Made by a program: the position numbers and the translations under genes. Positions 2,319-49,025 of a stretch of DNA of 64,000 bases are shown piece by piece; position 1 is the first letter of the stretch, and each line of letters starts with the position of its first letter. Below the pieces are notes generated by a model. It saw nothing but the letters and a program-made list of their open reading frames with translations. It was not told where the DNA came from and made no database searches. This stretch comes from Druceiella hillmani (lineage: Eukaryota > Arthropoda > Insecta > Lepidoptera > Hepialidae), in assembly GCA_039881145.1 (NCBI GenBank), contig JAYKKI010000004.1, positions 51,197,001-51,261,000 on the forward strand. Reading direction: 5' to 3'.

Positions 2319-46959
<44,641 letters not shown>

Positions 46960-48779: not shown

Positions 48780-48793
48780 AATTAATAAGATTT

Positions 48794-49011
48794 CACAATT
48801 AAATGAAACTACGTGATGTAGTATTATTTCTACTTTCTAGACCTTGCTATCTTTGCTAATATCCCACCTGAAGATGTTGTAATACAACGAAACCTAGGTC
48901 GTGGTAAAGAATTTAAAGAAAGTAGAAATAATACTACAGCACGTAGTTTTATTTAATTGTGAATAATGAATTTCATACTATATTATTACAAAATTAACGC
49001 CAAATATATTC
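48794..49011 (+). mobile_element. Hammerhead-bearing hairpin retroposon, copy 3 (best preserved ends)
   Basis: 218 bp flanked by a perfect 14-bp direct repeat AATTAATAAGATTT (48780-48793, 49012-49025). It begins CACAATTAAATGAAACTACG and ends AACGCCAAATATATTC, the same ends as copies 1 and 2, which lie in the opposite orientation. The upstream arm has an internal deletion; the downstream arm carries a hammerhead motif with all core bases. No coding capacity. Confidence 0.85.
48864..48904 (+). ncRNA. Hammerhead ribozyme, near-canonical type I (copy 3)
   Basis: Stem I CCAC (48864-48867) pairs perfectly with GTGG (48901-48904). Core box CTGAAGA (48868-48874); one extra T; stem II GTTGT-AAT-ACAAC; GAAA (48889-48892); stem III A-CC-TA-GG-T; predicted cleavage after C48900 in GTC. 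Stem III with a 2-nt loop is too small to be stable alone, but ACCTAGGT is an 8-nt palindrome, so two transcripts could pair there as in dimeric hammerheads of Penelope-like elements. Type and activity are inferred from consensus only. Confidence 0.75.
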
Positions 49012-49025
49012 AATTAATAAGATTT

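Follow-up and report, generated by a model that had tools for sequence, protein, structure and literature searches.

The integration of Penelope-like elements (PLEs) is little understood. Penelope of D. virilis, Pen2a_Av and other elements of Adineta vaga are described as having an inverted adjacent pLTR and a 31-bp tail at one pLTR; their pLTRs are 181-218 bp long, the ORF begins near the pLTR end, and 8-10-bp duplications, solo pLTRs and captured sequence are reported (PMC3846280). Self-priming has been offered as the origin of these inverted pLTRs (PMC3846280). PAc (Poseidon of Anolis carolinensis), reported in 2024, was the first full-length PLE protein to show activity in vitro; it cuts and extends both target strands from two RNA start sites which bound the tail (PMC11167929). 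Small coding-free animal non-LTR retrozymes carry type I hammerheads, and PLE-type enzymes are thought to be needed for them (PMC7229834, PMC7761336). In heliconiine butterflies, short non-autonomous Penelope copies are prominent; arms, tails and ribozymes are absent from the descriptions examined (PMC6685494).

The family described here resembles all of these in part. As in the Penelope and Pen2a_Av group, whose pLTRs are of comparable size, there is an inverted adjacent pLTR and a tail at one pLTR; here the unit is 111 nt and the ORF starts four bases after it. In contrast to the elements described in PMC3846280, a short form lacking the ORF is abundant, so that the one-tail rule and the separate truncation of the arms can be counted. 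The small, coding-free copies with type I hammerheads and a presumed need for PLE-type enzymes recall the retrozymes, and the prominence of short copies recalls the heliconiine elements. AT-rich targets and two adjacent reverse transcription start sites are reported for PAc (PMC11167929), as would be the case in this family; by eye, the target sites here are AT-rich, in a window which is itself 68.5% A+T.

The window is the whole stretch of Druceiella hillmani DNA that was analysed (64,000 nt). It contains three repeat intervals with common ends: copy 1 (5443-5712) and copy 2 (13948-14167) on the minus strand, and copy 3 (48794-49011) on the plus strand. Exact direct repeats of 13, 11 and 14 bp adjoin both ends of copies 1, 2 and 3, respectively. 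A reading of the window made earlier from the sequence alone (the sequence-only reading) had reported the three copies, their common ends and these repeats, and it was right on these three points; every repeat abuts its copy. For comparison, 11-mers abutting random ends 200-300 nt apart were found in 5 of 2,000,000 draws made outside tandem arrays and the copies. The copies have no coding content. Each is a fold-back, a structure overlooked in that reading. It combines a unit of 111 nt, here called U (copies 2 and 3 have exactly this length), with an inverse piece of U that meets it head-to-head, and one end carries a tail of 38-50 nt. U runs from CTTTGCTAAT to TTTAATTGTG, with the hammerhead motif in between, and the tail comes next. 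The inverse piece in front of U is 104 nt in copy 1, 30 nt in copy 2 and 45 nt in copy 3.

Copy 1 is self-complementary at 88% over 239 nt. Its left target site duplication (5430-5442, AAGTTTTAATATT; six element-side bases also fit the RNA template) is followed on the minus strand by the tail (5443-5480) and the full U of the tail arm (5481-5591), then by the no-tail arm on the plus strand (5609-5712, U without its last 7 nt) and the right duplication (5713-5725). There are two hammerhead motifs in opposite senses, the second of which had escaped notice. The motif in element sense (5538-5578, minus) has G12 changed to A and gives no Rfam match; the second (5622-5662, plus) has an intact core and the cleavage triplet GTT. 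In copy 2, the duplication CCAAACAATTT (13937-13947) precedes a 45-nt tail (13948-13992, minus, including an extra AATATTC) and the full U of the tail arm (13993-14103, minus), whose hammerhead motif (14050-14090, minus) has lost the closing pair of stem II. Next comes a stretch of 34 nt, also previously missed, in which the start of U is partly repeated in direct orientation (14104-14137, minus), then the no-tail arm (14138-14167, plus, the last 30 nt of U) and the right duplication (14168-14178). Copy 3 lies the other way round: the duplication AATTAATAAGATTT (48780-48793), the no-tail arm (48794-48838, minus, the last 45 nt of U in inverse orientation), the full 111-nt U of the tail arm (48851-48961, plus), the tail (48962-49011, plus), which holds the first codons of the PLE ORF and a private 13-nt insertion, and the right duplication (49012-49025). 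Its hammerhead motif (48864-48904, plus) has an intact core with one unpaired U before stem II, and cleavage is predicted after C48900. The arm ends also show a weak match to 33612-33671 of the window.

The family is large. A search of the 2.59-Gb genome with copy 3 gave 1105 first-look candidates; all 40 that were scored match, copy 3 among them, which agrees with the earlier expectation of a coding-free derivative with many copies in this genome. The U of copy 2 gave 1404 candidates (40/40 scored match, copy 2 among them), and the endonuclease peptide of one GIY-YIG locus gave 6151 (150/150 scored match). This abundance allows the arrangement of arms and tails to be counted, not judged from single cases. 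For each short-copy search 39 further places were fetched, 78 in all; with the three window copies the copy-3 set comprises 42, and the U-only set (query: U of copy 2) comprises 39. Two pairs of places were left out before counting: L014 and L039, which are near-identical duplicates, and L031 and L108, which hold two short elements each, side by side. By eye, L108 consists of two touching insertions with one tail each. The counts cover 63 two-armed short copies, 33 from the copy-3 set and 30 from the U-only set; one-armed matches (6 and 8, respectively) stand outside them, and six of the eight in the U-only set are preceded by PLE 3' UTR. The 16 long loci are not a random sample: two are GIY-YIG matches, eight were picked for long frames and six for paired endonuclease matches.

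U is present in 15 of these 16 loci, and in 14 the match takes in most of the tail as well, at 93-96% identity across 151-155 nt. The PLE ORF starts four bases after U, and the tail corresponds to its first ~13 codons. Two PLE ORFs have RVT_1 above the cut-off and GIY-YIG just under it (19.3 and 21 against 22.6); in L053, GIY-YIG is above the cut-off (34.3), and the GIY-YIG search of the genome gave two matches. Relatives listed carry PF00078, PF26215, PF28514 and, in some cases, PF01541; those named among the matches listed are from insects such as Parnassius, Euphydryas, Diabrotica and Tribolium, at ~35-50% identity. Among the 150 scored endonuclease matches there are, by our own reading, 25 pairs no more than 6 kb apart, and all are minus-then-plus, that is, head-to-head. 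On domains, pLTR, tail and variable duplication, the parent is classed as a Penelope-like element with reverse transcriptase (RT) and GIY-YIG; it has the pLTR in common with the short copies, and the inverted pLTR at the opposite end.

Because the same U and tail flank RT/GIY-YIG elements in the genome, the window copies are read as short pLTR insertions of the resident PLE and not as SINEs. The Penelope relation put forward in the sequence-only reading thus holds up, together with the PLE-type minimal hammerhead, and the full PLE with the same unit and tail that was then sought is present in the same genome. The AATATTC of copy 2 had been likened to a SINE tail; it continues the parent ORF sequence. 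The notion of a tiny non-autonomous family has also lost its purpose, as a separate family is not needed: the short copies look like products of the PLE transcript, with no need for a master of their own. Among short copies, U occurs with the variant states of the PLE (T at site 70, as in nearly all PLE copies) and with others; a separate master or non-autonomous lineage is a less likely source. In L062 and L063, nearly full-length PLE copies stand head-to-head over 6.3-6.6 kb in one 12-bp duplication. Their arms differ by 0.3% and 0.6% over ~1.1 kb, which suggests recent PLE activity.

Nearly every two-armed insertion bears exactly one tail, which is a new observation. All twelve clean two-armed long insertions (L056, L058-L068), among them six of the eight long-frame loci, have one tail, none at the other end, and a 9-15 bp duplication around both arms. 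Four long loci were left out of this count: L057, a single-armed tandem in which no duplication was found; L054, which is old and ambiguous and in which none was found either; L069, which runs off the fetched stretch; and L055, which has no U. In the U-only set, for which the query is free of the tail, 28 of 30 short copies have one tail, two have none (L085 and L099) and none has two. In the copy-3 set, to which the three window copies belong, all 33 two-armed copies have one tail; here the query contains the tail. In L019 and L033 the left end was set by hand to no tail; their duplications abut CACAATT. The tail occurs on either arm among short copies.

The ends of the insertions fall in two clusters. 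A duplication of at least 9 bp (range 9-18 bp) is found in 44 of the 63 two-armed short copies; random flank pairs gave such a duplication by chance in 71 of 1445. Within these 44 the tail end could be placed in 41 and the other end in 39. Tail ends lie at +33 to +44 from the ATG in 39 of 41 cases (28 at +34 to +37), and no-tail ends at -6 to -3 in 34 of 39. Microhomology between template and target has a mean of 2.61 nt at the tail end and 1.44 nt at the other end, compared with 0.54 nt for random flanks. From the end clusters and this microhomology we infer two RT start sites ~40 nt apart. PAc differs in detail: its ORF starts at hammerhead stem II and RT starts ~111-118 bp into the ORF (PMC11167929), whereas the ends here are at about -4 and +36 of the ORF.

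The two arms of an insertion appear to share a source. In ten long loci with both arms longer than 900 nt, arms of the same locus agree in 83 of 93 cells over 10 informative sites, compared with 55% between loci, and 0 of 2000 permutations reach the observed value. Divergence is 0.3-1.3% between arms of one locus and averages 1.75% between loci; of the 20 long arms, 14 are closest to their partner arm and six to another sequence. Agreement between the arms of short copies is above shuffles at sites 12 (18/18), 50 (16/17), 62 (17/20), 70 (29/29) and 110 (29/30). It is not above shuffles at the other five of the ten sites (89, 100, 112, 114 and 115); sites 112-115 are beyond the end of U and are partly target sequence. 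Site 89 was considered as a strand-specific copying error, as T on the left with G on the right occurs in 12 of 33 copies and the reverse in none. This candidate was rejected: copy 3, the query, shows the same arrangement and T stands at this site in each of the 32 PLE copies of U, so the pattern is taken as query selection. Similarly, G at position 38 in the U-only set is probably query selection, as copy 2 has it too.

The copies are probably short insertions of the resident PLE made by two-strand priming on RNA of one source. The PLE transcript would carry the pLTR unit U and then the ORF, and the PLE protein would cut the target with a stagger of ~9-18 bp. Each of the cut strands would serve as a primer for reverse transcription, both on PLE RNA of one source: one would start just upstream of the ATG (giving no tail), the other ~40 nt further on, inside the ORF (giving the tail). 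Each cDNA would be cut short on its own or copied up to the beginning of U, where it runs off, and the distal ends would be joined head-to-head. Starts in the 5' pLTR would give the 200-300-bp fold-backs, and starts in the 3' pLTR the long insertions in which parts of the ORF are found. If a dimeric enzyme held one RNA, this might give one of each site. L1 twin priming is similar in that two target strands each prime on the RNA and the cDNAs meet head-to-head in one duplication. In that process the second primer lands upstream on the RNA, whereas both arms here start at two fixed neighbouring sites. The counts argue for two-strand priming at two such sites. Among the openly available papers listed in searches on this topic, none proposes such a mechanism in its title or the opening of its abstract.

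It is a separate matter whether a symmetric machine follows an asymmetric rule, in which both strands prime on one-source RNA, one always at the inner and one at the outer site, to leave exactly one tail; the balance tips slightly towards it. If true, a single mechanism would explain both features of Penelope elements, the inverted pLTRs as well as the tail described as 'optional', and a dimeric RT holding two target ends on one RNA is predicted. Several points count against the two-strand model. L085 and L099 have no tail at either end, and one-armed matches exist in both sets. The short copies for which no duplication of 9 bp or more was found, the ambiguous L054, the single-armed L057, the six long arms nearest to a sequence other than their partner, and the non-random choice of long loci weigh against it too. 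Gene conversion between arms could also make them alike. The start sites of PAc in vitro are alike on both strands (PMC11167929), so nothing known forces one of each.

One rival reading is a SINE-like non-autonomous family, in which a fixed palindromic RNA would be moved as one unit by PLE enzymes. The short copies are indeed numerous and free of coding content, as such a family would be, but the unit is not fixed. There are 58 distinct centres in the 63 two-armed short copies, and four of the 58 are seen more than once. Inner ends vary: in the U-only set, 14 of 31 left arms extend into the first two bases of U, and the others stop anywhere from 5 to 106. The tail is on either arm, and the PLE's own variants are found among the short copies. 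Left arms ending at U position 67 recur in the copy-3 set (L015, L016, L022, L024, L035, L038 and window copy 3), in some cases with AGCAAAGAT next, as if the hammerhead hairpin had been skipped in copying. A 5-nt GCTAT flank before U, once considered to mark where a separate short lineage begins but since rejected in that role, is present in 21 of 42 members of the copy-3 set and in 0 of 39 of the U-only set. The position-67 class is likewise absent from the U-only set, and both features probably reflect the query. A fixed SINE-like unit is thus considered unlikely.

Self-priming, favoured for rotifer Penelope elements (PMC3846280), would make the inverted arm when one strand is copied and its end folds back, or when an antisense template primes itself. 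It suits the head-to-head orientation, the near-palindromic centres and the variants shared by the arms. However, an arm made by folding back can contain no sequence beyond that of the first arm. In L060, L066 and L067 the no-tail arm is clearly the longer one, with ORF sequence that is absent from the tail arm (the arms of L062 and L063 are nearly equal), and short copies such as L021, L022, L070 and L076 combine a truncated tail arm with a full no-tail arm. The points at which the two arms stop are unrelated; in L060 the tail arm is 1.0 kb and the no-tail arm 2.9 kb, and L066 is the same way round. Self-priming is contradicted for those copies unless large deletions after insertion hit the tail arm alone, and it is rated as improbable for the family. 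The longer no-tail arms and the shortened tail arms of short copies are the reason why, under two-strand priming, the arms are read as separate cDNAs begun at the target ends.

The hammerhead motif sits in the 5' half of U and reads CCAC CTGAAGA T GTTGT AAT ACAAC GAAA CCTAGG TC GTGG. One unpaired nucleotide separates the CUGANGA core from stem II; insertions of one or two nt before stem II are known from hammerhead alignments (PMC10085705). There are four full motifs in the window, one of them in each arm of copy 1, and two of the four are intact. The earlier claim that each copy has all parts of a hammerhead is borne out by copy 3 and by the second of the two motifs in copy 1, which have the minimal type I core with stem III weak or lacking, but fails for copy 2 (stem II pair lost) and for the element-sense motif of copy 1 (G12 to A). 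A descriptor with one unpaired nt allowed before stem II matched two of the four motifs (5626, plus, copy 1; 48868, plus, copy 3) and none in 60 simulated windows. The exact pattern gave 0 matches in viral and genome contigs; a loose pattern gave 4 matches in viral contigs, compared with ~4 estimated by chance.

A covariance check had been recommended in the sequence-only reading. On 66-nt pieces, RF00163 (Hammerhead_1) is the sole Rfam match for copy 3 (16.6 bits, E 0.063) and copy 2 (14.3 bits, E 0.37), in the right place, below the gathering cut-off of 34 bits; neither motif of copy 1 gives an Rfam hammerhead match. Rfam finds nothing in the whole window at gathering score, and no hammerhead up to E 10 in 401 bases around copy 3. 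An energy model does not favour the hammerhead fold in the monomer (MFE -14.6 vs -3.0 kcal/mol) and in the dimer (best duplex -37.6 vs -21.4 for the modelled hammerhead dimer). Stem and loop III of copy 3 form an 8-nt palindrome, ACCTAGGT. PLE-associated hammerhead variants are said, in work by Lunse et al. from 2017, to cleave as dimers. Palindromic loops III which are able to pair in a dimer have been described (PMC3088659).

There are 30 full PLE copies of U, whose choice did not depend on likeness to copy 3, and the motif is undamaged in 24 of them. Over ~87 arms, drawn from PLE copies and from short copies in the copy-3 set, some of them selected by likeness to the intact copy 3, mean conservation is 98.5% for the hammerhead region (U 14-58) and 96.5% for U 59-111. 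In these arms the predicted cut follows C in 77 cases, T in 8 and A in 2, and G in none. The hammerhead of the family can be considered a candidate ribozyme, defined here as a sequence motif. In the minimal hammerhead of PAc, G8 precedes the AUG and cleavage lies ~26 nt after it (PMC11167929); the distance here is 26-27 nt. In contrast to PAc, the AUG here has a stop two codons on, and the ORF starts 92 nt further down.

A further reading takes the short copies as animal retrozymes, in which a small circular RNA cut by the hammerhead would be copied by PLE enzymes. The copies resemble the described retrozymes in their size and low GC, in having a type I hammerhead and duplications of more than 4 bp, and in a suspected dependence on PLEs (PMC7229834, PMC7761336). 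Those elements are described as tandem head-to-tail units with circular RNA, whereas no head-to-tail tandems were noticed among the short copies here except for the 34-nt piece in copy 2. Full arms pass the cleavage site to the start of U, and U and the tail are those of PLEs. By inspection, none of the short-copy arms ends exactly at the cleavage site; L021 and L106 end within one or two bases of it. A retrozyme origin is therefore considered very improbable. Hammerhead cleavage is not needed for insertion by PAc (PMC11167929).

A DNA-transposon origin, as a MITE or as a fold-back element bounded by terminal inverted repeats, would also account for inverted arms and target duplications, but can be dismissed for practical purposes, as the duplications vary from 9 to 18 bp, the arms are unequal, the 38-50-nt tail at one end lies outside the inverted repeat, and the parent codes for RT.

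Copies 1 and 2 lie near exons of a GH20 beta-hexosaminidase gene on the minus strand (~5230-5418, 13697-13896, 18273-18515, 16162-16371, 11788-12111 and 2322-2504); PF00728 is found in four of these stretches and the others were assigned by eye. Among the matches listed, the encoded hexosaminidase reaches at most 53-54% identity to its counterparts in many arthropods. Read in gene sense, copy 1 is followed after 24 nt by a predicted 3' splice site and copy 2 after 51 nt, so that two of the three insertions are close to splice sites. Other mobile sequences in the window include transposase remnants, one with a Transposase_1 domain, and a PIF1-like helicase remnant, which is perhaps that of a Helitron (39465-39935, plus; 20756-21304, plus; 30904-31206, minus). 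A tandem array of 23-bp units lies close beside copy 2 (14258-14573), and very long dinucleotide-type microsatellites are found at 6085-6790 and 32270-33035.
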